This document shows, piece by piece, positions 6-31,322 of a stretch of 32,770 bases of DNA. How positions within the stretch are numbered: position 1 is the first letter of the stretch; every line of letters begins with the position of its first letter. A model generated the notes under the pieces. The model did no database searches and had not been told where the DNA came from. It saw only the letters and a list, made by a program, of their open reading frames with translations. The position numbers were made by a program, and so were the translations under genes. The stretch comes from a bacterium. GTDB taxonomy: Bacteria > KSB1 > UBA2214. The stretch is taken from the NCBI GenBank assembly GCA_029560815.1, contig JAKQKF010000136.1:1-32770 (forward strand), in the 5' to 3' direction.

Positions 6-1526
6 TCACTCCCCTCCTGAATCATCCCCCCGCTGTTGGTACCATACCTCGGGCCGCGTCTGCCAGCCGGTCAAGGGCCAGAACAGACAGGGCCGAGTAA
101 AGATTGTTTCGCCCTCTCCATACCCCCCCTTAATCTCCCGAACAAGCCAGTCGTCGTTGGTGATGATCACCTCAAATCGCCGCCTTGCCAGGGCGGTATC
201 GATCTCGTCAACCAGCCTCCTCCGTCCGGGTTCATCCTTTCCGCGCAAAACATCATCCAGGGCGCAGCGGTGCGCACAGCCGTTCTTGCCTGCCATGCGG
301 CTGAGATAACCATGGCTGGGGAACCAGACCTCCCCCTCCACCGCGGCGATGCGGCGCACGAGCGCCTCACCGGCCACCCGGTCTGCGGGGGCGGGCAGAT
401 GATGGCATGGATTGTAAAGCAGCAGCAGGAGTTGGAGCAGGGCGGCCGCCCAGGGCAGCAAAGGCCGCTCAGCCCGGGCGAACCAGCGCTGAACGGCCAG
501 TGCGAAGAGTATGGCCAGAGCAGCATGGGCCGGCATGGCGACGTTGTGAAAGGCCCCGGAGGGGACGCTCGCCAGCCAGGGACCGCCGATGAGCCCTGCC
601 GCCGCAGCCAGCCAGAAGAGCCGGGGCCCGTGTAACCGGCCGGGTCCGAGGAAAAGCGAGAACCCCGCAGCAAGGGTGGCGATGGGAAAGGGATTGAAGA
701 AATAGTCGATCCAGAAATGGTGGATCCGCCACAAGACCGGCGCATGCTGGCCGGGCAGATAGAAGAGGTAATAGAAGAGCCAGCCATCGCTTGCCCTCTG
801 CAGGGTCCAGAGGCCGCCGCCCAGGAGGATGAGCCAGACGGCGGGGACAAGCCATCGCCGCGGCCCCTCGCCGAAGAGAATCAACCAAACCATCACCGGC
901 AGGGTGATGATCAGGGCGGTCTGCTTGCAGAAAAAAGCAAGGACGAGCAGGATAGCCGCGCCGAGCCCCCCGGCGAGGGTGCGGCTGCACCGCAGCAGGT
1001 AGAGGCCGGCCAGCAGAGTCAGCAGAAAGAGAGAATCGACCCGCGCCAGGCCAAACCAGAAACCGCTGACCGGATAACTGGCCAGATAAAGCGTCCCCGC
1101 CAAAAGCCCGGCGTGACGGGATCCGCTCTCCCGGGCGGTCCACTGCCCGATGAGGAGCACGGTGAGCAGTAGGGCGAGGGTCGAGATGCCCCGCAACAGG
1201 GCCAGGCCGGGGCCGAAGAGGCGGCCGAGGAGGACAGCGAGATGGAAATAGAGCGGCGGATAGCTGAAGGGGGTGAAATCGAGAGCGGGCGGGCCGTAGA
1301 GCCTGCCGCCCTCGAGCAAGCGGTGGACATGATCGAGCATCCCCCCCTCCATCCACTCCAGCTCGAAGGGCCAGGGGATAAGACGCCAGGCCAGAAAGAG
1401 AAATGCAGCGAGGAAATAAAAGCCGGCGATCCAGAGGGCGGCGCCGGTCACCCTTCCTGCAAGGGTGCTCCGGAAAAACAACTCTCCTCCCGCGTCGGAA
1501 TCCGGCTGTTCCGGCGCAGGGTTCAT
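6..1526 (-). CDS. GT-C fold membrane glycosyltransferase (ArnT/GT39-like), 506 aa
   Basis: This is a polytopic inner-membrane protein with about ten hydrophobic segments, a first periplasmic loop right after TM1 (about residues 50-100) containing 'FSYPPLYFH', and a short soluble C-terminal part. That layout fits GT-C enzymes, which transfer a sugar from a polyprenyl-phosphate carrier on the outer face of the inner membrane. The usual paired acidic residues of loop 1 (DD/DE) are not obvious; 'ELEWMEGGMLD' sits in their place, so the catalytic acid is uncertain. The start ATG overlaps the upstream stop as ATGA, indicating translational coupling. It is the last complete gene in the run, and the stop lies 5 bp inside the window edge. 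The GT-C assignment rests on topology and loop position; acceptor and sugar are unknown. Confidence 0.72.
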   Translation of the reverse strand: MNPAPEQPDSDAGGELFFRSTLAGRVTGAALWIAGFYFLAAFLFLAWRLIPWPFELEWMEGGMLDHVHRLLEGGRLYGPPALDFTPFSYPPLYFHLAVLLGRLFGPGLALLRGISTLALLLTVLLIGQWTARESGSRHAGLLAGTLYLASYPVSGFWFGLARVDSLFLLTLLAGLYLLRCSRTLAGGLGAAILLVLAFFCKQTALIITLPVMVWLILFGEGPRRWLVPAVWLILLGGGLWTLQRASDGWLFYYLFYLPGQHAPVLWRIHHFWIDYFFNPFPIATLAAGFSLFLGPGRLHGPRLFWLAAAAGLIGGPWLASVPSGAFHNVAMPAHAALAILFALAVQRWFARAERPLLPWAAALLQLLLLLYNPCHHLPAPADRVAGEALVRRIAAVEGEVWFPSHGYLSRMAGKNGCAHRCALDDVLRGKDEPGRRRLVDEIDTALARRRFEVIITNDDWLVREIKGGYGEGETIFTRPCLFWPLTGWQTRPEVWYQQRGDDSGGE

Positions 1527-3079
1527 GGCCCGTTCCGCCTGAAGAGGAGCAGATTTTTGTCCCTGCGCAGGGGAAAGGTGCGAACGAGCTGAAAAGAGCC
1601 ATCCGCCTGCATGCGCTCGTAGAGGGCGCGATGGACAGGATCCATCCCCTCGTCGCCGGGTTCCTGCCGGTCGTTGAGCGCGATCCAGACCGGCCTCTGC
1701 GCCAGGATAAAATCGGCATAGCCGGCGAAATCCCCGCTCTTCCAGAAGCCCGGGATCTGCTTGCTGGTGAGCCCGATCATGTCGATGACGGGCAGATTGG
1801 AGTACCAGCCGATGGCGCCGATCTCATTGACCACCAGTTTCTCCCCCGGCCGGGCGTGCTCGCGGAGCCAGAGTCCGACAGCGCGGTGGGGCCGGCTGTG
1901 CATGGCGGGATTGATTTTCTCCCCGCTCGCCAACTCCTCATCGGCATAATAAAAGGTGACCAGGTTGAAGAGGATGGGCAGGCTCAGCCAGAGCCACAGG
2001 CGCCTCCCCTTGTCGCTGCGCCGCTGCAGGGCGCTGGCAAATGCCTGCACCCCGGCCCAGGCGAAGAGGCCGAGCACCGGCAGGGCCGGCACGTAAAAGC
2101 GGCCGAAGCTCATCCAGTCCGAGCCGCTGAACCAGATGAAAAAGAGCAGGCAGCCGAGCACAGCGGCGGGTGCGAGATCGCGGCGGCTGTACTGGAAAAG
2201 GAGATAAAACAGGGCGAAGATCAGAACCCACTCGTTCCAGGCGAAGCTCTGGTAGAGATAGTTGATGAAGGTCTGGGTGTGCCACATGGCATAGTGCAAA
2301 AGACCCCAGTGGGTCTTGATCTTGGCGAAGAAGGTATTGGGCAGCAGGGCGCCGTAATAGTGCCAGCGCCACAGGGTGGTGAGGGCGAGGCCGGCTGCCG
2401 GGAGGAGAGGATAGAGCCACCACTTCCCTGCGCCTTGCCCTCCACTGCGCTTGACAGGCAGGCGCTGCAGAAAGCCCATGACTCCTGCCTTCCCCTCCTG
2501 CCAGCCTGGCCACACACAGAGGGCCAGGGGCAGGATGAAAAGCATCCCCTCCGGCCGGGTGATAAGCAGGGTGGTGCACACCAGAGCGGCGCGGCCCGGC
2601 TTTTTTTGTACAAGAAACCAGATCAGCAGGAGCAGCTGCAGGGTGTAAAATAGCGTCTCCAGTCCCGAGACGGCATAATAGACAAATCCGGTGCAGGTGG
2701 CGAGCCAGGCCCCGAAGAGCAGGACGACCGGCCCGGAGGCGCGGAAATGGCGGCGGAGCAGCAGCATGGCCAGGAGGAGGATGCCGAGGCCGCAGCCCGC
2801 GCCGATGAGCTTGGAGGCCGCTTCTGCGTCCCATCCCATGGCGATGGCTGGTGAGAGCAGCAGGACCCAGAGCAGGTTGCTATAGCCCTCCACCCTTTCG
2901 CCGGGATTGAAGACCAGGCCGTGCCCTTCGACGAAATGGCGGGCGTAGCGGTAGCTGATAAAAGCGTCGTCGAGCGTGGCGGGCCAGAGCGTGGCCGCCA
3001 GCAGGGCGAAGAGCAGAAGGAGCGCCAGCACGCCGGTTGTGAACCCGGACGGCCGGCGGAGTAGGGCGTGTAGTTTCAC
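1523..3079 (-). CDS. GT-C fold membrane glycosyltransferase, 518 aa
   Basis: Polytopic membrane protein with one N-terminal TM (about residues 15-32), then a periplasmic loop with the acidic pair D37-D38 in 'TLDDAFISYRYARHF' and 'NPGERVEGYSNLLW', a motif common in GT39/ArnT-like enzymes. The C-terminal third is a soluble domain ('GEKLVVNEIGAIGWYSN') resembling the extracytoplasmic domain of this family. I chose a GTG start at 3079 that overlaps the upstream stop as GTGA; the open frame continues upstream to 3982, but that stretch is only a shadow of the neighbouring gene. It is likely a lipid-linked sugar transferase acting in the periplasm. Substrate cannot be read from sequence. It is translationally coupled to both neighbours, so the three GT-C genes probably act together. 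Confidence 0.78.
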   Translation of the reverse strand: MKLHALLRRPSGFTTGVLALLLLFALLAATLWPATLDDAFISYRYARHFVEGHGLVFNPGERVEGYSNLLWVLLLSPAIAMGWDAEAASKLIGAGCGLGILLLAMLLLRRHFRASGPVVLLFGAWLATCTGFVYYAVSGLETLFYTLQLLLLIWFLVQKKPGRAALVCTTLLITRPEGMLFILPLALCVWPGWQEGKAGVMGFLQRLPVKRSGGQGAGKWWLYPLLPAAGLALTTLWRWHYYGALLPNTFFAKIKTHWGLLHYAMWHTQTFINYLYQSFAWNEWVLIFALFYLLFQYSRRDLAPAAVLGCLLFFIWFSGSDWMSFGRFYVPALPVLGLFAWAGVQAFASALQRRSDKGRRLWLWLSLPILFNLVTFYYADEELASGEKINPAMHSRPHRAVGLWLREHARPGEKLVVNEIGAIGWYSNLPVIDMIGLTSKQIPGFWKSGDFAGYADFILAQRPVWIALNDRQEPGDEGMDPVHRALYERMQADGSFQLVRTFPLRRDKNLLLFRRNGP

Positions 3080-4335
3080 TGGACCATCTTGAGGAAAGTT
3101 TCCCGCATCGAATAGCGGAGATTGTGCAGATCGCTGAAAGGCCAGCGCCGCCGGTCGTTGCTGTCGTACTGGAGCGTTGAGCGGTAGACCGGCTGGGTGA
3201 AACAGGCCTGCACCTCGCCGTTGATGTGGAGATAGGAGAAGAGCAGGAGCGCCGCCATGATGATGATCTGCGGCCGCAGCCGCGGAGCGTCCGCCAGCAG
3301 CCGCCGGATGGCCAGCACGGTCATGGCCGCGACCGCGAGGGTCGGCACGCCCAGGAGGCGCGGTGAGGCGTCGAGCATGTTCGGCAGGGCGGCGATGCCG
3401 GCAAAAGTCAGGAGCAGAGCGCTGCCGCGGCTGCAGAGCTGCAGCGTTACGCGCCGTTTCCAGATCATCCCGGCCAGCAGGCCGAGTAAAACGAGCATCA
3501 GGAGCGCGGTCAGCCAGCTCGGCATGAGAAAAAGCGGGTAGAGCGTCGAGAGCAGCGCCTCGAAATAGCGGATCAGCATGCCGGCGATCCCCGCCAGCGG
3601 CCTCTCCGCCACCCAGGGATTTTCCGAAAAGCCCCTCTCCCCCACCGTGCGGGCGCCGAGGACGACCGCGCGCCAGACGAAATAGGCCACCCAGAGCAGC
3701 AGATGGGGCAGCAGCAGCCCCAGGGCCTGCCGGCGCGGCAGCGGCGCCATGATGATCAGCCAGGCGGCAATGAGCAGGGGTAAAGTGACGCTGATCTCCT
3801 TGCTGCCATAGGCCAGCATGGCCATGAAGAGGGAGAGCCCCACCCTGCCGGCGCGGCGCCGCGGCTGCGCTGCCGCCGACTGCACAAGATAAAAGGCGGC
3901 GAGCATAAAAACAAGGGCAAAAAGATCGATCTGCGCCGAAATCCAGGTGATGACCGCCCCGTTGCCGGGCAAGGCCAGCCAAAGCAGGGCGCAGAGCAGC
4001 GCCGGCAGGGCACTGGCCTTAAAACCGCGCAGAATGCGCTGGTAGATCCCGACCACGATCGCGGCGAGGAGGAGGTTGACCAGATGGTACCCCCAGGCCG
4101 CTCCGCCGAAGAGGAGATGCTCGCCGGTGAAAAAGAAATTGATCAGTGGCCGGTAAAAGCGTTCCGACCACGGCTCGCTCCACTTGCTCATCAGTTCGGC
4201 CAGCGGCCACTTTTTGATGAGCAGGAGATCGTCATAGGTCAAGCCGAACGAGAGTGTTCCACCGTAAAGCGCCGCGACCAGAAGGGCGCCCAGCCACCAC
4301 CCGCTTCCCCGCCTGCCTTCAAGCCACTTTTCCAT
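3076..4335 (-). CDS. GT-C fold membrane glycosyltransferase (PMT/TMTC-like), 419 aa
   Basis: A membrane protein with about ten TM segments. Loop 1 carries the acidic pair in 'GLTYDDLLLIKKWP' followed by 'FYRPLINFFF', a pattern seen in PMT/TMTC-type (protein O-mannosyltransferase-like) GT-C proteins. Many TMTC-like proteins continue into TPR repeats; this one stops after the membrane part and a short tail, so it is the minimal version. The ATG at 4335 lies 18 bp after the stop of the PorV-like gene, with only a weak ribosome site. The downstream gene starts within its stop codon (GTGA). A role in periplasmic glycosylation of protein or glycan is inferred. GT-C membership is moderately sure; the acceptor is unknown. 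Confidence 0.72.
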   Translation of the reverse strand: MEKWLEGRRGSGWWLGALLVAALYGGTLSFGLTYDDLLLIKKWPLAELMSKWSEPWSERFYRPLINFFFTGEHLLFGGAAWGYHLVNLLLAAIVVGIYQRILRGFKASALPALLCALLWLALPGNGAVITWISAQIDLFALVFMLAAFYLVQSAAAQPRRRAGRVGLSLFMAMLAYGSKEISVTLPLLIAAWLIIMAPLPRRQALGLLLPHLLLWVAYFVWRAVVLGARTVGERGFSENPWVAERPLAGIAGMLIRYFEALLSTLYPLFLMPSWLTALLMLVLLGLLAGMIWKRRVTLQLCSRGSALLLTFAGIAALPNMLDASPRLLGVPTLAVAAMTVLAIRRLLADAPRLRPQIIIMAALLLFSYLHINGEVQACFTQPVYRSTLQYDSNDRRRWPFSDLHNLRYSMRETFLKMVQ

Positions 4336-4353: not shown

Positions 4354-5388
4354 TTACAGGTGAAAGGCCCCGGTGATGCGGTGCGAATTGCCGAGGTCGC
4401 TGCCGACAAAGGCGTAATCGAGGCTGAATCCCGCCAGGTTGAGGCCGGCCCCCGCGGTGAGTTCGCTGCGATAGTAGCCGCCCCGCACGCTGAGGAGGTT
4501 GAAGAATTTGAGCTCCGCGCCGGCGCAGTTGCCCTCCTCGTTCCAGAAGAGCCGGTCGTAGGCCGCGGTGATGCGCATGCGCAGCGCCGGCAGGGTATGG
4601 GAAAGGGCAACGCCCGCCTGCAGACCGCGGGCGATCTCGTCCTTGTGATTTGAGGCCGTATTCCAGCTCATCTGCGTGCGCGAGAGATCGCGGATAGAGG
4701 CTCCCAGACTCAGCCAGGTGCGCGGCTCGGGCTCGTCCACCCAGCCGGGCATGAACCGCACCAGCACACCCGCATCCAGGCCCTGGCCGCTGCCGGTATA
4801 GCTGTCGAGGGCCTGATGAATATATTTTCCGGTCACCCCGAAGGCGATCTCGGTGGGGATGACGGTGCCGGCGATATCGCCGCCGACGGCCAGATCCAGG
4901 AGCATGCTGCGGCGAAAGGTCAAAAAGAGGGCATCCTCCCGGTCGGCGAACCAGCCCGTGGCCTCGCCGGTGGAGCGGTTGACGCCGGTCGTGTAGCGGT
5001 CATAGCGGCTGCCGAGCAGGGCGTCATAGCGGGGGATGTCATCGACGCCGAGGCGGATCCAGTTGATGCTGACGCTGGTCTGCGCGTTGAAAGCCAGATG
5101 GGCCCCGGCTGTGTTGTACTGCGCCAGCCCCGCAAACATCGGCATGTGCTCGACCTGGAGAGCCAGCGCCCCCCCCGCCACAGCTCCTGCCGGATTCCAG
5201 TAACTGGCGCTGGCGTCGTTGGCGACGGCGACATAAGCCCCGCCCATCGCCATGGCCCTTGCCCCCACGCCGATGCGGGTAAAGTCCGCCGCGTAATCGC
5301 CCGCCCGCACGGTGGTCACGCCCAGAAAAATCAGAGCCAGAAAAAGCGGTCTGCCGATGCGCTCTCTGAAAGGAGTTGTCGTTGCCAT
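4354..5388 (-). CDS. PorV/PorQ-family outer-membrane beta-barrel protein
   Basis: 344 aa with an N-terminal signal peptide ('LFLALIFLGVTTVRA'). Directly after cleavage comes the family hallmark 'FTRIGVGARAMAMGGAYVA', then 'ANDASASYWNPAGA', diagnostic of the PorV/PorQ (UPF0164) family. The rest alternates polar and hydrophobic residues as in a FadL-like beta barrel and ends in 'GAFHL', a typical outer-membrane aromatic-hydrophobic end. In T9SS bacteria PorV carries cargo to the sortase PorU, and porU and porV are adjacent in Porphyromonas gingivalis. Here it lies 18 bp downstream of a PorU-like C25 peptidase, the same arrangement. Its family is clear; whether it is a functional PorV or a PorQ-like relative cannot be decided by reading. 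Confidence 0.85.
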   Translation of the reverse strand: MATTTPFRERIGRPLFLALIFLGVTTVRAGDYAADFTRIGVGARAMAMGGAYVAVANDASASYWNPAGAVAGGALALQVEHMPMFAGLAQYNTAGAHLAFNAQTSVSINWIRLGVDDIPRYDALLGSRYDRYTTGVNRSTGEATGWFADREDALFLTFRRSMLLDLAVGGDIAGTVIPTEIAFGVTGKYIHQALDSYTGSGQGLDAGVLVRFMPGWVDEPEPRTWLSLGASIRDLSRTQMSWNTASNHKDEIARGLQAGVALSHTLPALRMRITAAYDRLFWNEEGNCAGAELKFFNLLSVRGGYYRSELTAGAGLNLAGFSLDYAFVGSDLGNSHRITGAFHL

Positions 5389-5406
5389 GCGCGAAGCCCT
5401 TTCTCC

Positions 5407-8400
5407 CTACTGCAATTTGGCCATTTTTTCGATACGTTCAATGCGCTGCTCGCCCTGTTCGGCGATGAATTTCAGATAGTAGACGCCGTTGGCGACCTGG
5501 TTGCCATCGTCATCCGTGCCATCCCAGTCGACCTCCATGTAGCCGGTCACACCCTGCAGCTCAAAACTGCGGATGAGCCGCCCGGAGACCGTATAGATGG
5601 CCAGCCGGGTACGATTGGCGGTCTCGGATAAATTGAAGGCGATTGTGGTCTCCTCGTGGAAGGGATTCGGATGGTTGGCCAGGCTGACCAGATCGAAAAT
5701 CCCCTCGACGTGAAAGGCCGCCTCCAGCTGCGCGGCGTTGCTGTTGATATCCATCACCTCGATCTGCAGTGTATGGCTGCCGGTCTCGAGGGTCGGTGCA
5801 AAAGTCAGGGTGAGCGAACGCCGCGCATCAGAGTTCTGAAAAAGGGTGTAATCGTCCGCATCGACCTGCTGATGATCGAGCAGCACACGGATGCCGGCTC
5901 CGGCCAGATCAAAACCGGTCGCATCTTCCATATAGGCTGAAAAGAGGGGATTGCGCGAAACCACATCCCCGTCGGCAAAGTTCTGCCCGCCGACGCTGAG
6001 GGTGATTACCGGCGCTTCGGCATCCTGGCTGGCCAGGAGGCTGAAAGCGCGCAGGGTGGGCGGCAGTGAGGCCGAGACCATCCCCTGCGTGGAATCGATC
6101 ACCGACTTGAGCCCGTGCCAGGTATTGGATCGGCTGTTCCAGCCATAGATGCGCAGACTCCCGTTGCGAACCAGCGCCCGGTTACCGGCATCCTCCGGAT
6201 CGAAAAGCGCGACCACCCCGATCTCCTTGCCGGGCGCCAGCGAAGTGTCCGCAAAACTGAAGCCATAAAGCACATGGCTGGAGGAGAAGCGGAACTTGAC
6301 CGGCAGCAGTCCGGACCAGGCCGCCGCGCGGGTCTGGGTTTCATCCCACCCCTGGCTCCAGTTCAGCATCGCCGTCTGGGAGAGCGCCCCGGCCGGGATG
6401 TCTATATAGCCGTTGCTCTCGGGCAGGTAGAGGGGACCGTTGCTGCCGGTCGCGGTGGTGACGATTCTGGAGACCGCCAGAGTGATATTGTTGTTCTCGT
6501 TGCTCTCCTCCACCTGATTGTCGGCATCGGACTGGAACCAGAACTTGCGTTCTCCCGCATTGGGCGTATTCCAGAGGATCGTCAGCACGGAATCGCTGTT
6601 GGCAGGCAGCGATGCCACCTGCAGCTTTTCGCCCACCGGTTTGTACGTCGAGGCGTTCACGCCCTCCGTCACCAGGACGCGGAAGGGACCGGAGGGTTTG
6701 TCGCCGCCGTTCTTGATACGAAAATCGATGCGGGTCTGGGCCCCGTAGATCCTGATCGACGTAGGATCGATCGAGATGTCGGGACGGAATCCGACGGTGG
6801 CATAGCTGATCGTGCCGACGATCTTTTCGCCGTTGCCCGCCGTCACCACACTCTGGTAGTAGACGCGCGAGCCCTCGTTCTGCTTGCGGCCTTCGGGCGT
6901 TCGCCAGGCGCCGTCGCTTTGGCGCACCAGGGCGATGTTCTGCCATTCGACTGCATTGGTGGAGAGATTGAGGGTCACAGCCGCCACTCCGCCGCGGCTG
7001 CGCAGGGCGGTCTCATCGACGGTCACCGTAAAATAAAAGGGCTCCTGGTGAACCGGGGGCAGGGGATCGGTGCCGATCTGCACCATGGCATGACCCGCCA
7101 CCGAAATCGTCGCTGCCGCAGCCGCATCCTCCTGCGCATTATAGGCAAAGACCCGGACTGTCGCTTCGCCGGTTCTCCAGAGCGCGATATTTTCGCTGGT
7201 CAAGGTGAAAAGATCGCACGCCCAGGCGCCGTTCTGCAGGGGCACCACCTTGCGCGCCAGAACAGAATCGGCTTCGTTGGCGAGCGTCACCACGGCGCTG
7301 CCCGAGGTGATCCTCTCCGCTTTGCCGCTGACCTGGATGGTCTCGCCCACCAGGTAGGCGCTCCGGGAGGGTTCAATGGTGACCTCCTCTTCCGAGAGGT
7401 GAAAATTCAGGCCGGGATCTCCAAGCAGGACGAAATGGCGGAGATTGTCCCAATAGCCATTGGTCCTTTCAACCAGAAAAAGCTTGCCAAGGGTGACAAT
7501 CTCGCCCATGCGCCGTGCTTCAGCGGCGAAGATGGCGTTGAAAAGGGCGATATCGAGGTAATAGTCGCCGTCGGCTGAAGCCTTGGCCGCAGAACCAAAG
7601 TGGGCCACGGCGCCGCGGTCACGCGCGAGCACCAGCTCCATCCCTAGCGAGGGCATCTCGGGATTGTCAAAATGGCCGACGAAACAGGTCATGCTAAAGA
7701 CGGCGGGATAGCGGTTCCTGTTGTTGAGACGCTTGACATCCTCGATCTTGAACAATTCGTTGTCGAAATAGACTCCGCCGCCGCCGTGTCCGATGAAATT
7801 GACCAGGCTCTGGCCTGTATTGATCATTTCGGCGAGGGTCTCGGTGTTGCCGTAATGGATCGATCCCTGCAGGGTGGTCAGCCGGTTGACTGTGATCCGT
7901 TTGGGCGTGTATCTGGCGACCAGCTCGTTGGCGTCGCGGATGAAACGCCCGCCGTCGCCTTCGGCATAAACCATGCCGATGCTGCGGCGCCACTCATCGA
8001 TGACCGGCTGCTGTTCATAATCGATCGTTTTCCGGACCATGATATCCGCCTGGTCGGCGCTGCTGACGGGGAAACGGCCGATGTAAAGATCGGGCAGAAT
8101 GTCGTTGCCGCTGACGGCGACCAGGGCGTTGTCCGATGAAGTCATGCCCCAGGAGTTGGTATAGACCATGAGGGTCGGGACGTAGCTCTTGAGATTGAGC
8201 TTCTCGGCCGCCCGTTTGTTCATGTAGTGGGTGGTCGTGCCGAAGAGCAGCACGTAGAGGGGGGCGGGACGCGTCCAGTTGAAATAGGCGTAGGAGATAA
8301 AGTCGCGCAGGGCATTGGGATCATAGATGCCGTCGTTGAACTCGTCATAGACATCCTGGATGTCGACCACAGCCGTGCGCAGCCCCTCAGCGGCGCGGTG

Positions 8401-10251
8401 CTGCGCCAGACGTTGCGCCTGGGCGGCGAAATCGGCATGGGTGACGATGATATAGTCGGCGCCGTTGGCGGTCGAACGCAGCGCCGAGGGCCGGTCGAGG
8501 GTGATGGAGGAGACCGGCTTGAGGCGGTTCCGGCCGACGAAGTAGAGATTGCGCGGGGCTTCGGCCTGGTAACCGAAGTAGCAGCTCCAGCCGCCGCCGC
8601 CCGGCTTCATCCGGTACCCGGTCATGATCTGCCCCTCTTCCGTAAAAGCGTAGAGCTGATCCGTGGAAAAGCCGTCGATGCGCACCAGACGCGGTCCGCT
8701 CGCGGGCAGGAGCACGCGCAGGGAATCCTCGTTCGCGACCAGTTTGCCGGCGAAATTGAGCTTGACGTAATTGACCAGAATCTTGTCGATGGCGACGCCC
8801 TTGATATCCAGCGGCAGGTTGAAGCGCAGCACATTGTCTTGGGCGAGGAGCGCCGGTTTTTCGATCCGCTGCTGAATGGTGACCGCGGTCTGATTGTCCC
8901 AGTAGGCCTCCGCGACCTGCTGCTTGTTGAGATAGAGGCGCACATGATGGTCGGGGTTGGCCTGGTAGATATGGGTCAGGCCGAGCATATTCACGGTCAG
9001 GTCGAGCGGCTGGCCGGCGACCAGGTGGTCGATCGGCAGCGGCAGAGTGAACTCATAATCCGGCGAGGCGGAAGCCCAGTACCAGTGATCGAGATTGGGA
9101 TCGTTGTTGTCCAGCGTCCGCTCGTAGATCAGATCGCGCTCCAGATGGAGCTGGAATTGACCGCTCGTCAGAGTGTCCGCAGCATTCTGGGGCGGAGAGG
9201 CCGGCGACTCGGCGAAACGGGCGCCCACGCTTCCGTCCCAGGAGAGCCAGTAGACGGCGTTGTCGGAATACTGGCTGAATTGAAAAGTGCGGGCGCTGTT
9301 ATGGCGGCCGATGAAGATGATGCGGTCCTCTTCGTCAAAGCTGCCATCGCTCCCCCCCTCCACCAGGATGGCGACGCTCTTGCCGCGATGGGTCAGGGCC
9401 AGGGCGCCGGGGGAGATGGCGCTCAGGGAGACCCCCGCGCCGGCCACTTCGCGCCCGGTGATGACATAGACTCCATCCTGCCCCAGCTCGATGCGCAGAC
9501 GCTGCGTTTCACCGGCCGGCTGGGAAGATTTGGCAAGGGCGGACTCGCCGGCGGCGTCCACGCGCCACTTTCTGCTCTCCTCATAGTTGGCCAGCGTCGA
9601 GGCCAGCTGTGCCTCAACCGCCGCCGGCTCCGCCGAGGCGGATCGGGTCCAGCCCGAGGCGACCACCGCTGCGGCGCCCCCGCTCTCAAAGTCCAGGCGC
9701 AGACGAAGCTTGCGCACGATCTGCAGCGACTGCTGACGGCTGGCGTAGCGCACAGGACGGAGGTAGACCTGCACAAACCGCTGGCTGCGGAACATTCCGT
9801 CCATCCCCAGCTCGACGGTCCGTGCAGGATACCACCCCTCCAGCTCCGCCAAAGGCAGCGCAGCTTGCTCATGCCCCTCCGAATCGACAACGTTGTAGAC
9901 CGGTTTGTCCGCCATCCGCAGGAAGCCCGAACTTTTCGTCGTGCTCTCCTCTGAGAGGAGGCTCAGACGGACCTGCCCGTCGGCCGGGACCCCAAAGAGC
10001 ACGCTGGTCACCGGCAGGCGGGGAAGAGTGTAGCGATCGGTATAGGTCGCCCCATCGAGGGTGACATCGGTGATCCACTGGCCGCCGCTGAGCTTCTGGG
10101 CCACGCTGACCGAATCAAAAACGATATCGCAGACAAGGGCTTTATCGGACGACTCCACGACGGTGCAGCGATAGGGCATCTGCACAGCACCCAGAACAGT
10201 GTGCGCCCATATCAGCAGCAGGCCGGGAAGCACCCGGATCATCTTCTTCAT
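5407..10251 (-). CDS. C25 (gingipain/PorU-like) cysteine peptidase with CARDB and FlgD-like C-terminal domains
   Basis: 1614 aa, secreted. I chose the ATG at 10251 because AGGA sits about 8 nt upstream and a signal peptide follows (MKKMIRVLPGLLLIWAHTVLG); the frame stays open to 10290. Residues about 250-320 ('RIELGQDGVYVITGREV', 'GSFDEEDRIIFIGR') look like the N-terminal part of PorU-type proteins. The C25 core spans about 595-950, with the catalytic His822 in 'NFIGHGGGG' and Cys856 in 'SMTCFVGHFD', ending in 'LLGDPGLNF'. A CARDB-type Ig domain follows at about 1157-1262 ('NQVEESNENNN'), then a further beta region, and a FlgD-like/T9SS type A domain at 1521-1614 ('NHPNPFHEET', 'NGVYYLKF'). 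Both catalytic residues are intact. Adjacency to a PorV-like gene suggests a PorU-like sortase; an ordinary surface protease is the alternative. Confidence 0.87.
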   Translation of the reverse strand: MKKMIRVLPGLLLIWAHTVLGAVQMPYRCTVVESSDKALVCDIVFDSVSVAQKLSGGQWITDVTLDGATYTDRYTLPRLPVTSVLFGVPADGQVRLSLLSEESTTKSSGFLRMADKPVYNVVDSEGHEQAALPLAELEGWYPARTVELGMDGMFRSQRFVQVYLRPVRYASRQQSLQIVRKLRLRLDFESGGAAAVVASGWTRSASAEPAAVEAQLASTLANYEESRKWRVDAAGESALAKSSQPAGETQRLRIELGQDGVYVITGREVAGAGVSLSAISPGALALTHRGKSVAILVEGGSDGSFDEEDRIIFIGRHNSARTFQFSQYSDNAVYWLSWDGSVGARFAESPASPPQNAADTLTSGQFQLHLERDLIYERTLDNNDPNLDHWYWASASPDYEFTLPLPIDHLVAGQPLDLTVNMLGLTHIYQANPDHHVRLYLNKQQVAEAYWDNQTAVTIQQRIEKPALLAQDNVLRFNLPLDIKGVAIDKILVNYVKLNFAGKLVANEDSLRVLLPASGPRLVRIDGFSTDQLYAFTEEGQIMTGYRMKPGGGGWSCYFGYQAEAPRNLYFVGRNRLKPVSSITLDRPSALRSTANGADYIIVTHADFAAQAQRLAQHRAAEGLRTAVVDIQDVYDEFNDGIYDPNALRDFISYAYFNWTRPAPLYVLLFGTTTHYMNKRAAEKLNLKSYVPTLMVYTNSWGMTSSDNALVAVSGNDILPDLYIGRFPVSSADQADIMVRKTIDYEQQPVIDEWRRSIGMVYAEGDGGRFIRDANELVARYTPKRITVNRLTTLQGSIHYGNTETLAEMINTGQSLVNFIGHGGGGVYFDNELFKIEDVKRLNNRNRYPAVFSMTCFVGHFDNPEMPSLGMELVLARDRGAVAHFGSAAKASADGDYYLDIALFNAIFAAEARRMGEIVTLGKLFLVERTNGYWDNLRHFVLLGDPGLNFHLSEEEVTIEPSRSAYLVGETIQVSGKAERITSGSAVVTLANEADSVLARKVVPLQNGAWACDLFTLTSENIALWRTGEATVRVFAYNAQEDAAAAATISVAGHAMVQIGTDPLPPVHQEPFYFTVTVDETALRSRGGVAAVTLNLSTNAVEWQNIALVRQSDGAWRTPEGRKQNEGSRVYYQSVVTAGNGEKIVGTISYATVGFRPDISIDPTSIRIYGAQTRIDFRIKNGGDKPSGPFRVLVTEGVNASTYKPVGEKLQVASLPANSDSVLTILWNTPNAGERKFWFQSDADNQVEESNENNNITLAVSRIVTTATGSNGPLYLPESNGYIDIPAGALSQTAMLNWSQGWDETQTRAAAWSGLLPVKFRFSSSHVLYGFSFADTSLAPGKEIGVVALFDPEDAGNRALVRNGSLRIYGWNSRSNTWHGLKSVIDSTQGMVSASLPPTLRAFSLLASQDAEAPVITLSVGGQNFADGDVVSRNPLFSAYMEDATGFDLAGAGIRVLLDHQQVDADDYTLFQNSDARRSLTLTFAPTLETGSHTLQIEVMDINSNAAQLEAAFHVEGIFDLVSLANHPNPFHEETTIAFNLSETANRTRLAIYTVSGRLIRSFELQGVTGYMEVDWDGTDDDGNQVANGVYYLKFIAEQGEQRIERIEKMAKLQ

Positions 10252-10293
10252 GCCGTTTCCTTTCTCTCTCCGCATCCTGTCGATCCTCATGCT

Positions 10294-10575
10294 CTAATCA
10301 GGTTCCCGGGCTGAGAGCTTTTGTGCGAGCTCCTGCAGCTCGTTGAGCAGCTCCATGCTCAGTTCAGACAATTTTTTGCCATAGTGCCAGACGCGCTCCA
10401 TCAGCACCGCCTCCTCGGGGGTCAGGCGCGACTGCATCTCATCGCTAAAGATGTTGATGTAGCCGAGAAGGCCCTGTGCGGCGGAGCGTACCTCATGACC
10501 CAGCCGGCGCTGCCGTTCTGAAAGCGGCTGCGGGGTCGAGCCCGAGGACGGTTTGTTTTGCTCAGCATCACGCAC
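10294..10575 (-). CDS. Solitary histidine-kinase dimerization (HisKA-like) domain protein, 93 aa
   Basis: The central part reads like an H-box: 'RRLGHEVRSAAQGLLGYINI', with His27 in the phospho-acceptor place and the expected G-Y-I turn. The second helix of a dimerization hairpin follows at about residues 52-88. No ATP-binding HATPase domain follows; the gene stops after the helical pair, so it cannot phosphorylate itself. It starts at GTG inside the end of the upstream GT-C gene (8-nt overlap, GAGG about 10 nt upstream) and ends 42 bp before the C25 gene. It may serve as a phosphotransfer partner or a dominant regulator of another kinase. Family assignment comes from the motif only; it could also be a remnant of a lost kinase. 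Confidence 0.6.
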   Translation of the reverse strand: MRDAEQNKPSSGSTPQPLSERQRRLGHEVRSAAQGLLGYINIFSDEMQSRLTPEEAVLMERVWHYGKKLSELSMELLNELQELAQKLSAREPD

Positions 10576-11818
10576 TGCCAGGCATCCTCTCTTCTGATTT
10601 ATGCCGCTGCAGCCGGACGAGGGTCAAGCCATAGGCGGCCATCATAATAATAAAGTGATCCAGCGGCAGGCGCAGCCGGACCTTGACGATCATCACCGCG
10701 TGCACCGCCGTGTAGGCCAGGGCATAATATAAAAACAGGGCCATCCTCTTCTTCAACTGCGGCGGGGCTTTCCTGTATCCCCAGAAAGTAAGCAGCAGCA
10801 GGGGCAGAAAGGTGAGCAGCCCCGCGGCCCGGACCATCCCGTCCGACCGGAGGTAGGAGGCGGTGACCGGCGAGGGATCGAGCCGCCAGAAAAAGAGAGC
10901 CTTGAGCAGGGTCCTTTTGACAAAGACGCCCGGCTCGGCCAGGATGAAAGAACGGGCCGTCGCACTGAAGAGCGAATCGGCGTAAATTTCGGAACCCGAG
11001 CTGATAATGCGCTCATCCATATCCGGCGGCGTGGGCACACTGCAGGGTGAATCGATATCGGAGGCCGGATTATTGCCCAGCCAGAGATTGTAACCGCCGT
11101 TGGTAGCCAGCAGCGGCCGCCCCAGCCGCAGCTGGTTGCGCGCTATCCACGGCAGCAGAAGCAGCAGCATGCCGGCAGCAAAGAATCCGGCCAGCCTGAG
11201 CCCCTCCCTCCAGCCCCTGCGAGCGTGACCTAGATGCCACACCACTGTGGCGCCGGCGAGGACAACCGCGGTGGTGACCGTGAGCACCGCCCAGCCCCAG
11301 ACCATTCCGCCAAAGAACATCATCTTGTTATTATTATAAGTTACAGCCTTAACATACATCCAGGTGCCGAGCACCAGGAGCATACTGTATAGTGTAGTGG
11401 CTAAAATCGTGCCAGGCAGGAAGATGAAATAGGGATAGAGGGCGCAGCCCGCAGCGGCGAGCAGCGCCGCGATCTCTCCAAAGAGCATGCGGCTGAAGAA
11501 ATAGACGATGACGATGGTGAGCAGGCTGAGCACAAGCTGGGCCCAGCGGACCTGTGCGGGGTCCGGCAGACCGGCCAGGCGCAGGGCAGCCAGCCAGAGG
11601 GGATAGCCGGCCGGAATGACCGCCGTCGGCCTGCCTTCGGCGATAGAATAGCCCGCACCACTGGTCAGGTGTTCGGCGATGGCCAGATTTTTCTGCTCGT
11701 CGCTGTAGATGACCCGCTGATCGAGCCGGGAGATGAGGAAAAAGCGGGCGATGAAAGCGCCCGCCAGAATGACGATCAGGAGCAGGATGCGGCAGCTTGT
11801 TCTTGAGCTGTTCAGCAA
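10568..11818 (-). CDS. GT39/ArnT-like GT-C glycosyltransferase, 416 aa
   Basis: Polytopic membrane protein beginning with TM1 (about residues 10-28), followed by a periplasmic loop with the acidic pair in 'VIYSDEQKNLAIAEHL' and 'IPAGYPLWLAAL', close to the GT39 (PMT_2) signature. 'PWIARNQLRLGRP' and 'NGGYNLWLGNNP' after the central TMs are also typical of this family. The start is a TTG at 11818, supported by GAGGAG about 7 nt upstream; no ATG lies nearby in frame. Its stop overlaps the start of the small HisKA gene by 8 nt. It probably moves a sugar from a lipid-phosphate donor at the periplasmic face. Its sequence is only loosely like the three GT-C genes at the left end of the window, so it is not a recent tandem copy. 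Confidence 0.82.
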   Translation of the reverse strand: MLNSSRTSCRILLLIVILAGAFIARFFLISRLDQRVIYSDEQKNLAIAEHLTSGAGYSIAEGRPTAVIPAGYPLWLAALRLAGLPDPAQVRWAQLVLSLLTIVIVYFFSRMLFGEIAALLAAAGCALYPYFIFLPGTILATTLYSMLLVLGTWMYVKAVTYNNNKMMFFGGMVWGWAVLTVTTAVVLAGATVVWHLGHARRGWREGLRLAGFFAAGMLLLLLPWIARNQLRLGRPLLATNGGYNLWLGNNPASDIDSPCSVPTPPDMDERIISSGSEIYADSLFSATARSFILAEPGVFVKRTLLKALFFWRLDPSPVTASYLRSDGMVRAAGLLTFLPLLLLTFWGYRKAPPQLKKRMALFLYYALAYTAVHAVMIVKVRLRLPLDHFIIMMAAYGLTLVRLQRHKSEERMPGSA

Positions 11819-11840: not shown

Positions 11841-12875
11841 CTATTGCCTTTCGGTATAGCTGTAGAGCCCGTGGTCCTCGGTGCCGATATAGACCACGCC
11901 GGGATCGCCGGCGGCGACCTGCAGCGCGGTGATGGTCACGCCGGCAGGCATCCCAAGCGACATCTCGCTCCAGGTGGCGCCGCAGTCGGTGCTGCGATAG
12001 ACCGTGGTGGTGTTGGCCAGGTAGAGCCGGTCACGCAGCCGGGGATGGGTGACAATGGCCACTCCCCGCCCTTTTCCCTGCGCACCATAGGCGTATTTCC
12101 AGTTCTGGCCCTCATCCTGTGACAGATAGAAATCGCCGTTGACAGTGACGGCACAGATTTGGCTCGAGTCGGCACCGGCAAAGGCAAACTGGACCGGACT
12201 GTCATAAAAGCTTCCGGTGCCCTCCACCCCGCTGTTGGCGTAATACCACCGTCCCCCCGCATCGGTTGTGCGCGCAAAACCGGTATAGAGCAGGCCCGCC
12301 ATGAGGGTCGCCGGATTGCGCGGCAGGCTCGTCACGGAGTGGATGAGGCGGCTGTTGAGAAAGGTGTTGGTCCATTTTTCTTCGCTGCGCGCCTTGCGGT
12401 AGATGCCGGTGGCAGTCGCCAGCCAGATGACCTCATCGCGCTGATCAACCAGATGGATGTCGTTGACCAGGGTGTTGGCCACCTCGCCCTTGAGGTTGGT
12501 CCAGCTCTCCCCGCCATCCTCGCTGCGGCTGAGTCCGAATCCTGTGCTGCCGCAGTAGAGACGCCGGGGATCGTCGGCGGTGATTTCCACCGCCTTGATG
12601 TCGTGGCTGATGAGCCCGGTGGTGAGCGGGTGCCAGCTGGCGCCTGCATCCGTGCTCTTGTAGAGGCCGTCGAAGAGCCCGACGTAGAGGGTGCCGGGCT
12701 GATCGGGATGGATGGCAATGCACTGCACCTTGCGGTCCAGCACCTGCAGGGGGAGTGCACTCCACCCTTTTTCTTTCACCACCGGTTTGACGGGATCTTT
12801 ATCGCAGGCCGTGCAGCCCGTCAGGAGCACGAGCGCGGCGCAGATCAGGCGGTTTATTCTCTTCATTCTCTTCAT
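11841..12875 (-). CDS. Lipoprotein with Asp-box (BNR/sortilin-like) beta-propeller
   Basis: 344 aa. The N-terminus is a lipoprotein signal with lipobox 'LLTGC' (Cys21), so it should be lipid-anchored. Five clear Asp-box motifs (S/T-x-D-x-G-x-x-W) appear at residues 74-81, 118-125, 203-210, 252-259 and 295-302, with a worn sixth near 163-168 ('RSEEKW'). These repeats build a six- or seven-bladed propeller as in sialidases, VPS10/sortilin and Ycf48. No sialidase catalytic set is apparent, so a binding or scaffold role is more likely than hydrolysis. GGGAG sits about 7 nt before the ATG, and the gene begins 10 bp after the GT4 stop. It could bind the exported glycan or assist assembly of the neighbouring surface proteins; that is inference. 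Confidence 0.82.
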   Translation of the reverse strand: MKRMKRINRLICAALVLLTGCTACDKDPVKPVVKEKGWSALPLQVLDRKVQCIAIHPDQPGTLYVGLFDGLYKSTDAGASWHPLTTGLISHDIKAVEITADDPRRLYCGSTGFGLSRSEDGGESWTNLKGEVANTLVNDIHLVDQRDEVIWLATATGIYRKARSEEKWTNTFLNSRLIHSVTSLPRNPATLMAGLLYTGFARTTDAGGRWYYANSGVEGTGSFYDSPVQFAFAGADSSQICAVTVNGDFYLSQDEGQNWKYAYGAQGKGRGVAIVTHPRLRDRLYLANTTTVYRSTDCGATWSEMSLGMPAGVTITALQVAAGDPGVVYIGTEDHGLYSYTERQ

Positions 12876-12885
12876 TTTCTTCTCC

Positions 12886-14181
12886 CTACCTGGCCAAACG
12901 GTTACAGTTCAGCGCGTCCAGTTCGAGACTGCGCAGCGAAAGGGCGAGCGCGCTCCTGGCCTGGGCCAGGTGCGGGAGCGGCAGCGGCCGGTTGAAGACC
13001 CGGGCATAGGCCGCAAGGAGCGGGGGATGGGTGTGAACCCAGGCCAGCTCGTTGACCACACGCTGCTGCCCGTAGGCGCCCATCTCGGCGCGCATCTGCG
13101 GGTTGTTGAGAAGGACGTTGATTTTTTGTGCAAATTGACGGACGTCATTGGGCCGGGCATAGAGCGCAGCGCGCCGGGCCGAATAGTGGATCTCCTTGAG
13201 ATCAAAGGCGACGATCGGCCGGGCGAAGACCATGTATTCGAGGATCTTGTTCATGGTCGAGTTGTTGGCCCACTCCGACCAGGGATCGGGGTCGACGCAG
13301 ACATCAGCGGTGGAGAGATAGCGGGCCAGTTCGTCATCACTGATCCGTCCGGTGAAATGGAGGTAGCCGGTCATCCCCATCTCCGCGCTCATTTTTTTCA
13401 GCTCCTCGACCGCGGGGCCGCCGCCGATCAGGACAAAGCTGACATCACGCCGGTGCAGGGTTTGGTGCAGATAATGGGCCGAACGCAGCAGATAATCGAC
13501 CCCATCCTGCTGGCACATCTCGCCGAGATAGCAGACCAGGTAGGGGCGGCCCTGCCGCAGCTCCGGATCGGGCTCGACCGGATGGAGCTTGTTCATATCC
13601 GGACCGGTGCGCACGACAAAGACATCCTCCGCTTTTTTATGGCCGCGCTCCAGGGCGATATCGCGGTAGGATTCATTGGTAACCAGGACCACCCTGGCGG
13701 TCTTGAGAGTCAGTTTTTCGAGCAGAAGCAGTGCATGGTAGAGCAGTCCGCGCCGCCCGTGAAATTTGGCCGAAAACATCTCGGGGGAAAGGTCATGATG
13801 ATCAAAGATGAACTCCTTGCCGATCAGCTTGTAGAGCAGGCCGAGGAGAAAGTAAGTATCGGGCGGATTGCAGGCCTGCAGCACGTCAAAGCCCTCCCTG
13901 CGCAGCACCCGGAGTGAGAGGCGGGCGGTCTGCAGCCAGGCATAGATGAATTCGGCCGCATAGCCCAGCACCCCTCTCGCCTCAAAAGGGATGTGATAGC
14001 GATGGATATGAATGCCATCGATGACCTCATGTTCAGCCGGGTATTCCCGGGAGGTTGGACAGATCACCGAAACCTGGTAGCCGTTGTCGCGCAGTGTGGT
14101 TGACTCGAGCCATACCCGGCGGTCGAGCGGCACGGGCAGGTTCTGAACGACGATCAATATCCTACCAGCAGATTCCTTCAT
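12886..14181 (-). CDS. GT4-family (GT-B fold) glycosyltransferase
   Basis: 431 aa, cytoplasmic. The N-terminal Rossmann half holds 'LPVPLDRRVWLESTTL' and 'GYQVSVICP'; the C-terminal half has 'VLIGGGPAVEEL' (about residues 250-260), 'LHFTGRISDDELARYLS' and the nucleotide-sugar binding helix 'NKILEYMVFARPIVAFDLKE' (311-330), with the E-x7-type acidic pair E315/E330-region of GT4 enzymes. It retains the donor nucleotide-sugar site, so it should add one residue to the lipid-linked repeat unit. Its ATG overlaps the end of the algD-like gene by 20 bp and has GAGGT about 6 nt upstream, implying coupled translation. Sugar specificity is unknown; GDP-mannuronate from the neighbouring enzyme is a possible donor. 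Confidence 0.92.
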   Translation of the reverse strand: MKESAGRILIVVQNLPVPLDRRVWLESTTLRDNGYQVSVICPTSREYPAEHEVIDGIHIHRYHIPFEARGVLGYAAEFIYAWLQTARLSLRVLRREGFDVLQACNPPDTYFLLGLLYKLIGKEFIFDHHDLSPEMFSAKFHGRRGLLYHALLLLEKLTLKTARVVLVTNESYRDIALERGHKKAEDVFVVRTGPDMNKLHPVEPDPELRQGRPYLVCYLGEMCQQDGVDYLLRSAHYLHQTLHRRDVSFVLIGGGPAVEELKKMSAEMGMTGYLHFTGRISDDELARYLSTADVCVDPDPWSEWANNSTMNKILEYMVFARPIVAFDLKEIHYSARRAALYARPNDVRQFAQKINVLLNNPQMRAEMGAYGQQRVVNELAWVHTHPPLLAAYARVFNRPLPLPHLAQARSALALSLRSLELDALNCNRLAR

Positions 14182-15478
14182 AATTGACCTCTTTTATATG
14201 CGTGTGCTTGCCGTTTTTCAATCCCGACAGGTCGATGATTTTGTGGCCGTTGCGCAGGTCGCCCAGCACTCTTTCATGTTCCTCGCCGTTGTTGCCGATG
14301 ACGACGATTTCGGACCGGGCGAGGAGCTCCTCCATGGAGCTGCACATCAGTTTGGCGATGTGGGGCACCTCCCGTTCGATATACTCCTTGTTGGCGCCCA
14401 TCAGCCGCGCCATCGAGACATTGCGGTCAAAGATGCGCACCTCATACCCCTTGCCCACCAGTTCCTCGACCAGAGCAACGACCGGGCTTTCGCGCAGGTC
14501 ATCGGTACCGTGCTTGAAACTGAGGCCGAGAACGCCGATCCGCTTGCGGCCGTAGGCCTTGACGAGCCGGAGAGCGTGCTGGAGATGCTCCTCGTTGCTC
14601 TCGAGGGCTGAGTCCAGCATCGGAACGGCGACGTCATCCTGTCGTGCGCGATGACTCAGGGCGCGCAGATCCTTGGGCAGACAGGAACCGCCAAACGCGA
14701 ACCCGGGCTTGAGATAGCAGGCGGAGATATTGAGCTTGGTATCCTGGGTGAAGACGTTCATGACGACACGGCTGTCGACCTGAAAATTCTTGCAGAGCCG
14801 GCCGATCTCGTTGGCAAAGGCCACCTTGACGGCGTGAAAGGCGTTGTCCGCGTACTTGATCATCGAGGCCTCGCCCGGGGGCAGCTGAAAGAGCTGGGCG
14901 GGAAGACTGGAATAGAGCGCCGTGAGCAGGTCCGCGGATTCCTGGTCATAGACTCCGAGCACGGTTTTGGGCGGATGATAAAAATCATGCACCGAGCTGC
15001 CCTCGCGCAGAAATTCGGGATTGAGGGCGAAGCCGAAATCGATGCCCGCGTGCATGCCGCTGGCCGCCTCGAGAGCGGGGATGGCCGTCTCCTCGGCCAC
15101 ACCGGGCAGTACGGTGCTGCGCAGGACAACCGTGATGCGATGCTCCGCGGTGCGCAGCAGCTTGCCGATATCGGTGCAGACCCGGCTTACATAGTCCAGG
15201 TGGAGACTGCCGTTGCCGTTGCTGGGCGTTCCGACACAGATGAAGACCAGATCGCGGTCCGAAAGATCGGGCGCGGTGGTGGCTCTGAGCCGGCCGGCCT
15301 GACGCTGGTTAAGGATCAGCTCCTCCAGTCCCTCTTCGACGATCGGGGAAAGCCCCTCATTGATCAGACGCACCTTATGGGCGTTGATGTCGACGCCGAT
15401 GACGTCGTGTCCCATCTCGGCCAGGCAGGCCGCCGAGACGCACCCCACATATCCCAATCCAAAGATGCTGATCTTCAT
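14162..15478 (-). CDS. algD: GDP-mannose 6-dehydrogenase (AlgD-type)
   Basis: 438 aa, about the length of Pseudomonas AlgD. It oxidises GDP-mannose to GDP-mannuronate with two NAD+. The N-terminal Rossmann motif is 'ISIFGLGYVG' (3-12); 'NPEFLREGS' (153-161), 'MIKYADNAFHAVKVAFANE' with Lys208 and Asn212, and the catalytic Cys266 in 'FGGSCLPKD' are all intact. The C-terminus ends 'EGICW', as I recall for AlgD, which favours GDP-mannose over UDP-glucose as substrate. I chose the ATG at 15478, with GGAGG 10 nt upstream, over an open frame reaching 15562. It lies between GT2 and GT4 genes. Mannuronate, or a sugar derived from it, is therefore a likely building block. No GDP-mannose synthesis gene is visible in the window. 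Confidence 0.9.
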   Translation of the reverse strand: MKISIFGLGYVGCVSAACLAEMGHDVIGVDINAHKVRLINEGLSPIVEEGLEELILNQRQAGRLRATTAPDLSDRDLVFICVGTPSNGNGSLHLDYVSRVCTDIGKLLRTAEHRITVVLRSTVLPGVAEETAIPALEAASGMHAGIDFGFALNPEFLREGSSVHDFYHPPKTVLGVYDQESADLLTALYSSLPAQLFQLPPGEASMIKYADNAFHAVKVAFANEIGRLCKNFQVDSRVVMNVFTQDTKLNISACYLKPGFAFGGSCLPKDLRALSHRARQDDVAVPMLDSALESNEEHLQHALRLVKAYGRKRIGVLGLSFKHGTDDLRESPVVALVEELVGKGYEVRIFDRNVSMARLMGANKEYIEREVPHIAKLMCSSMEELLARSEIVVIGNNGEEHERVLGDLRNGHKIIDLSGLKNGKHTHIKEVNYEGICW

Positions 15479-15506
15479 AGTCCCGTAACCTCCAGAAACC
15501 ACTTCA

Positions 15507-18734: not shown

Positions 18735-18735
18735 G

Positions 18736-21253: not shown

Positions 21254-21292
21254 GGGACACCTCATCGTTTGTATTAAAAAATTAATAATTTA

Positions 21293-25141: not shown

Positions 25142-25177
25142 TTCATCCTCGCACAATTAGAGATTGAACTTCTGCTG

Positions 25178-28774: not shown

Positions 28775-28823
28775 CATATCTCCTTGAGTCTGATTTGCAG
28801 GCCTGCGCGGATTCAAACCGCTG

Positions 28824-31206: not shown

Positions 31207-31322
31207 GAATCTGCTCCTCTCCTTCATTCAAGGCCTACTTCTGTTATTTGACGGCGGCCGCTCCTGCCGGCAACCCCGGCCCTCCGGCCGTGACATGGAA
31301 TGCCGCCATTCACAGCTCCTTA

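Follow-up and report, generated by a model that had tools for sequence, protein, structure and literature searches.

Is a gene pair resembling the sortase PorU and its outer-membrane partner PorV, lying in the middle of an exopolysaccharide (EPS) locus, the ordinary attachment machinery of its genome, or a separate device that fastens secreted proteins to the polymer made alongside it? The question is raised by the 32,770 nucleotides of contig JAKQKF010000136.1 (assembly GCA_029560815.1, a bacterium of the KSB1 lineage), which together are the window analysed here. One minus-strand gene run crosses it, from a receiver gene at the 5′ end to three hydrophobic proteins, and within this run a peptidase C25 protein and a PorV/PorQ-like barrel share their direction with the genes for Wza, Wzz, an ATPase, a kinase-like protein, Wzy_C, Wzx, a family 2 glycosyltransferase (GT2), a dehydrogenase and a family 4 glycosyltransferase (GT4) (Table 1), as a preliminary description had pointed out for the polymerase, flippase and exporter. 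The association of this pair with a cargo gene and EPS genes is well supported across related genomes. That the pair is a second, dedicated attachment complex of the type IX secretion system (T9SS), with its own cargo and acting on the glycan of its locus, is a reading to which we would give about an even chance.

The C25 open reading frame (ORF) covers 5407-10290, although the start taken in the preliminary description, 10251 (MKKMIRVLPG..., resembling a signal peptide by eye), is the more plausible. Its product comprises C25 propeptide-like and PorU-like N-terminal domains, the C25 core, a CARDB domain, a PorU-like penultimate domain and a type A/FlgD-like C-terminal domain (CTD), with Pfam matches to Peptidase_C25 (PF01364, 280 bits), Propeptide_C25, CARDB and FlgD_ig, and a type A sorting domain (TIGR04183) at 25.9 bits for a cut-off of 23. 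The C25 dyad, His822 and Cys856, is invariant in 50/50 aligned C25 rows, the alignment holding 50 of 74 C25 candidates. Profiles and alignment thus bear out the PorU-style N-terminal region, intact dyad and FlgD-like tail described beforehand, and the PorV/PorQ-family barrel is found where it had been reported, 18 bp beyond the C25 ORF on the same strand. Against the NCBIfam PorU model (NF033707) the C25 protein scores 360.6 bits, below the curated equivalog cut-off of 420. The barrel scores 84.7 bits along almost the full length of the PorV/PorQ superfamily profile (PorV_fam, NF033709), just below the cut-off of 90, and 23.9 bits against PorV proper (NF033710, cut-off 250). PorV/PorQ-family barrels are strongly expanded in these bacteria, with 20–35 matches per genome, far above the C25 copy number, in ten genomes (G001, G004, G005, G009, G010, G014, G017, G047, G063 and G075); a lone ‘PorV’ therefore means little, and we rejected it as a specific marker and used adjacency alone. 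A PorV-family gene follows the type-E C25 gene (the clade of the window protein, see below) within 0–660 bp in all 22 loci with room for it, the other 4 of 26 ending too soon.

A genome scan gave 66 loci, and 26 genomes were followed, 16 of them strong type E; genome-level counts throughout refer to relatives of the window’s bacterium represented by draft metagenome-assembled genomes (MAGs), the PorU of the nearest being 89% identical. C25 genes occur in all 26 (2 to 15 matches each), and so does the gene for the SprA translocon, which the preliminary description had proposed to seek elsewhere in the genome. A tree of 114 C25 cores splits into four clades, named here types B, S, D and E, so that at least four clades of PorU-like C25 proteins exist in the KSB1-type group, one of them grouping with Bacteroidota PorU. 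The tree was made by a quick method with support from the Shimodaira–Hasegawa-like approximate likelihood ratio test (SH-aLRT) only and no bootstrap; it used 33 of 120 listed proteins and omitted L067-L096 (short loci representing the same or further C25 hits), the repeats L139, L151, L156, L100 and L107, and the short L023, L041, L046 and L047. Type E holds 16 rows including the window (SH-aLRT 99). It is type B, ~1330 residues long, that groups with Bacteroidota PorU (SH-aLRT 98), and one type B member reaches 882 bits against the PorU model. Type S (12 KSB1 rows) forms a clade with Calditrichota relatives, and two of its proteins score 316 and 325 bits against that model; like type E it has a similar length, the same gene order and its own PorV-family gene (12/12), but it is a separate clade, its pair lies on the SprA contig in 9/12 genomes and no EPS genes were seen around it. 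The type S loci are L098, L101, L104, L108, L113, L116, L119, L121, L123, L127, L131 and L134. NCBIfam defines another PorU-like/PorV-like pair of T9SS genomes, PorU2/PorV2 (NF052324, NF052325), but the window proteins score 224 bits (cut-off 450) and 96.7 bits (cut-off 325) against these models, the latter being the barrel’s best among named families; type D, of ~1900 residues, is nearer, one such protein reaching 336 bits against PorU2, still below the cut-off.

A separate PorU above the NF033707 cut-off is present in 21/21 type-E genomes searched (best scores 572–910 bits), whereas the type-E orthologues give 241–319 bits by translated search in 20/21, the G048 gene being split between contigs and unlisted; PorZ (NF052228) exceeds its cut-off elsewhere in 18/21. 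Judged by sequence, the window pair is a type-E paralogue distinct from the genome’s PorU/PorV. Since type E lies outside the Bacteroidota PorU clade and below the cut-off, and relatives carry a separate PorU, we rejected the window protein as the genome’s PorU, and the preliminary description, which had itself listed a separate complete PorU/PorV pair elsewhere in the genome as a refutation, is not supported in this respect. A further C25+PorV pair, type S, is present in 12 of these 21 relatives. With a separate PorU and PorZ at hand, housekeeping alone does not account for the extra pair, and the reading shifts from a PorU/PorV embedded in an EPS locus to a dedicated extra copy.

We read 26 type-E loci, 25 with strong matches (at least 600 bits) and one, L016, from a Zixibacteria MAG. 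Of 28 genomes, 24 have a single EPS ATPase match and four have none at threshold; the ATPase shares a contig with the type-E PorU, within ~20 kb, in 13 genomes (G001, G004, G005, G009, G010, G014, G017, G046, G047, G048, G061, G063 and G075), and lies on a different contig in 11 others. This linkage persists down to 34% PorU identity (G075), and L016 unites PorU and PorV with Wza, Wzz, ATPase and kinase, though arranged differently. The 40 loci fetched around other C25 copies (L097-L136, from 15 genomes and partly overlapping) hold no Wza, Wzz, ATPase, kinase, Wzy, Wzx or dehydrogenase match of at least 55 bits within flanks mostly of 5–8 kb, several shorter, which is less than the ATPase distance and mostly enough for the dehydrogenase, GT4, propeller and PMT_2 genes; four type D loci among them have a weak GT4 match. 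Neighbour matches were reported at 55 bits or more for these loci and one neighbourhood set, and at 50 bits or more for another set. The neighbourhood is therefore conserved in relatives, which the preliminary description had named as a check. The EPS ATPase is less specific to type E than the cargo (see below): in the phylum a similar ATPase occurs in 23/25 type-E genomes versus 9/57 others. Two of these nine lie on short contigs, and one of the two, G082, has a type-E PorU of lower score (522 bits) as well as a partial cargo relative next to Wza.

The candidate cargo is the secreted protein with a matching CTD that had been noticed in the locus, and its tail scores 32 bits against TIGR04183 (cut-off 23) and 24.4 against the Pfam model PF18962, below the cut-off of 27. 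It tracks with the pair: a full-length orthologue (at least 258 bits) is found in 23/25 strong type-E genomes versus 0/57 others of the phylum (82 genomes), including G011 and G012, where the locus is divided (see below). Its gene lies beside Wza or one gene off in 11/11 relatives’ loci read there (L140, L143, L144, L153, L158, L159, L177-L180 and L192); the two strong type-E genomes lacking a full-length orthologue are G075, with three other genes for the same sorting module 4–9 kb from the ATPase, and G015, where a partial cargo relative adjoins Wza. Elsewhere, two full-length cargo copies flank four other sorting-module genes (G047:C1:293535-309553 and G048:C22:11513-27568), and the comparable cluster of G046 includes a single full-length copy. 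In G083 (L169:7930-16690) and G084 (L170:8089-20000), neither of which has an EPS ATPase above threshold, a C25+PorV pair with a weaker resemblance to type E is separated by ~3 and 6.5 kb, respectively, from a gene similar to the C-terminal half of the cargo.

In every one of the 22 KSB1 loci long enough to show it, a propeller gene lies upstream of the C25 gene; 21 are intact, and that of G063 is broken. The protein is one seven-bladed Asp-box propeller with no CTD match; its lipobox-like Cys is invariant in 22/22 aligned copies, the window’s included, and structure alignments covered 20 of the 22, L006 and L008 (a run of N) being omitted. It matches Ycf48, GH74 and many other propellers. We rejected it as PorZ itself, which would require two propellers and a CTD where there is one propeller and a lipobox (PorZ is not among the matches listed, which proves nothing); it is rather a candidate glycan-presenting partner, a putative PorZ analogue that would present the glycan of the locus.

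How might these parts work together? In P. gingivalis, PorU cleaves off the CTD and joins the C-terminus thus exposed to the amino group of a linking sugar, a product of the Wbp/Vim pathway (Veith 2020, PMC7468200; review PMC10202324), PorZ, of two propellers and a CTD, presents anionic lipopolysaccharide (A-LPS) (PMC8545088), and the linker sits on Wzy-polymerised O-polysaccharide (PMC13086638, a 2026 paper). By analogy, the 358-residue protein, and perhaps other cargo, would cross the outer membrane via the genome’s SprA translocon and be received by the type-E PorV-like barrel through its CTD. The type-E PorU would then remove this domain and join the C-terminus so created to an amine of the locus-made, exported glycan, which the propeller lipoprotein would present as PorZ does A-LPS, so that the bond forms at the surface. 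Co-encoding of a sortase copy, barrel and cargo in an EPS cluster suggests that the enzyme fastens cargo to the polymer, with the type-E PorU acting as a putative transpeptidase, the locus protein as its proposed substrate and the locus glycan as its proposed acceptor. For the covalent protein–glycan bond we infer a probability close to one half. That KSB1-type bacteria evolved a full second attachment system, in which sortase, barrel, propeller, cargo and polysaccharide form one unit and the cargo is covalently bound to the exported polysaccharide, is a tentative proposal that falls somewhat short of even. The earlier suggestion of a dedicated system attaching secreted proteins to a self-made glycan is thus sustained as far as the conserved locus, the cargo and SprA are concerned, and not in its assignment of the pair as the genome’s PorU/PorV.

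A number of observations weigh against such a system. No linking-sugar (Wbp/Vim) gene was recognised in the window locus, a genome-wide search for them not having been made, and the locus dehydrogenase resembles the UDP-glucose class, its top named match being UDP-glucose 6-dehydrogenase AglM (320 bits, below the cut-off of 670). Residues ~161–357 of the cargo, its sorting module, are common to tens of proteins per genome, the first ~160 residues mostly not, so that cargo specificity is not evident. Linkage of the two halves of the locus is not obligatory, since the dehydrogenase-to-PorV half stands apart from the export and cargo half in G011, where the exporter half sits well inside a 321-kb contig that lacks the PorU half (a split locus), and in G012, where contig ends put ~20 kb or more between them; in nine further genomes the halves are on different contigs and linkage is undecidable, several contigs breaking inside the cluster. 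The exporter, moreover, works without the pair, seven of the nine ATPase loci outside type E, read ~8–10 kb each side, having neither PorU nor full-length cargo. The Fisher tests (p 2e-18 for the cargo, 5e-11 for the ATPase) ignore shared ancestry and use bit cut-offs chosen after seeing the scores (600 for strong type E, 258 for full-length cargo, 190 for the EPS ATPase), and per genome the best 25 (cargo) and best 6 (PorU) first-look candidates were scored. GldM/PorM was found in 0/21 genomes, control genomes likewise giving no match, L016 from Zixibacteria lacks a propeller match, and the catalytic core of the C25 protein, taken alone, superposes with higher Z on gingipains than on PorU.

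It is also conceivable that the pair only trims and releases, cutting the CTD so that the matrix protein then binds the polysaccharide non-covalently, with no protein–glycan bond. Some T9SS substrates are released after PorU removes the CTD, with no A-LPS attached, as the review records (PMC10202324), and the lack of recognised linking-sugar genes extends from the window to 20 extra ORFs between conserved genes in six relatives’ loci: nine glycosyltransferases, two methyltransferases, one PMT_2 protein, one AMP-binding match just below the cut-off and seven unmatched, with no FemAB/VimA- or WbpS-like match among them. We nevertheless regard trimming alone as rather unlikely, because the propeller lipoprotein, and mostly also the PMT_2 protein, is kept beside the pair, where a pure protease has no obvious need of them, and because a separate PorU is already in these genomes.

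Alternatively, the type-E PorU/PorV could act as one more general sortase, joining a wide range of cargo to ordinary lipopolysaccharide (LPS), and lie near EPS genes on account of shared sugar-making genes (dehydrogenase, GT4 and PMT_2) instead of the exported polymer. The closest genes are indeed the dehydrogenase, GT4, propeller and PMT_2, the very half that stands apart from the exporter in G011 and G012, and the sorting module is common to many proteins. The 13 genomes in which exporter and pair share a contig, together with the presence of both cargo orthologue and pair in G011 and G012 as well, make this improbable. Still less credence attaches to the C25 protein being a gingipain-like protease in an unrelated role, such as maturing EPS export parts: PorU (PDB 6za2) aligns with it at 121.7 bits over two stretches, the C25 core and the penultimate domain with CTD, versus 40.6 bits over the core only for gingipain R, and a PorV-family gene is next in every testable locus. 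The predicted structure of residues 210–1070 (mean predicted local distance difference test score, pLDDT, 90.1) has PorU as its top Foldseek match (E 3e-38), and PorU is the sole named C25 chain aligned over both N-terminal domains and core (668 residues). Thus, while the core itself superposes at least equally well on gingipains, sequence and domain architecture support a PorU-like rather than a gingipain-like protein, and a gingipain-type protease was rejected; the preliminary description had counted a core matching gingipains but not PorU as a refutation. A gene-order accident of one lineage, favoured in that nearly all genomes come from one phylum-level group, is already largely refuted and barely worth entertaining, because the neighbourhood recurs in many genomes, which excludes chance, ATPase linkage reaches G075, the genes occur together in a different order in L016 and EPS neighbours are missing around the remaining C25 copies of these genomes.

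The locus shares with the PorU-PorV-PorQ-PorZ and A-LPS system of P. gingivalis, where porU presumably adjoins porV, a PorU-type C25 protein with its own CTD, a PorV-family barrel, a beta-propeller, a type A CTD cargo and a Wzx/Wzy glycan; unlike that system it is an extra paralogue beside a separate PorU, in a Wza/Wzz exported-polysaccharide setting and with a built-in cargo gene. The exosortase XrtA/PEP-CTERM system likewise places a sorting enzyme and a secreted protein with EPS genes of TIGR03015-, TIGR03007- and TIGR03027-like types. Here, in contrast, the enzyme is a C25 protein, the signal is a T9SS CTD, the EPS proteins fall below XrtA-specific cut-offs and exosortase was found in 0/26 relatives (16 strong type E), the same search being positive in one control genome, M. 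jannaschii. In the portions of the literature consulted, the acceptors described for T9SS sortases are LPS or glycolipids, in P. gingivalis and T. forsythia, and no description of a T9SS sortase inside an EPS locus was found. A link between sortases and EPS is not itself a new idea, since a 2020 paper, having observed that VimA matches a family linked with exosortase/EPS systems, speculates on amino-acid-modified sugars in them (PMC7468200). If our proposal is true, the T9SS can be turned to the construction of a protein–sugar matrix, and the locus would be a T9SS counterpart of exosortase/PEP-CTERM where no exosortase was found, offering a parallel with a better understood enzyme. It also names one cargo protein whose C-terminus is checkable by mass spectrometry.

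Table 1 Genes of the EPS locus and its flanks in the window, listed from the 5′ end of the minus-strand run.
Feature	Position	Strand	Remarks
Response-regulator receiver protein	31721-32128	-	Kept at corresponding locus end in relatives
fn3 protein	29926-31227	-	No T9SS tail match; conserved neighbour of cargo
Candidate dedicated cargo, 358 aa	28824-29900	-	Own N-terminal ~160 aa and shared sorting module with type A CTD
Large apiosidase-like protein	25178-28816		Big_5, DUF5060 and fn3 domains; no T9SS tail match; between cargo and Wza
Wza-type polysaccharide export protein	24239-25156	-	TIGR03027, 102.8 bits, below its cut-off
Wzz-type chain-length determinant	22747-24207	-	TIGR03007, 173 bits, below its cut-off
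XrtA/PEP-CTERM-type EPS ATPase	21293-22396	-	TIGR03015, 251.6 bits, below cut-off 324.5
Tyrosine-autokinase-like protein of EPS loci	20276-21265	-	Profile match
Wzy_C polymerase/O-antigen-ligase family protein	18736-20232	-	Profile match
S-adenosylmethionine (SAM) methyltransferase	17883-18755	-	Profile match
Wzx-type flippase	16463-17965	-	Profile match
GT2 glycosyltransferase	ORF 15507-16910, likely start near 16460	-	Profile match
Nucleotide-sugar dehydrogenase	14162-15562	-	TIGR03026, 400 bits
GT4 glycosyltransferase	12886-14181	-	Profile match
Seven-bladed beta-propeller (BNR/Asp-box) protein	11841-12875	-	Lipobox-like Cys
PMT_2 (PF13231) membrane glycosyltransferase-like protein	10568-11818	-	Adjoins pair in most loci
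Type-E PorU-like C25 protein, 1614 aa	5407-10251	-	
Type-E PorV/PorQ-like outer-membrane barrel	4354-5388	-	Partner of C25 protein
Three hydrophobic proteins	6-4335		Multi-spanning by eye; no Pfam match; downstream of pair

The gene for the apiosidase-like protein occurs at the same place in G001 (L140) and G003 (L179) and in none of nine other loci read, and a partial relative of its product lies beyond PorV in G061 (L166). The three hydrophobic proteins, possibly glycosyltransferases, have counterparts at the same position in the nearest relatives only (L001, L002, L003 and L007).

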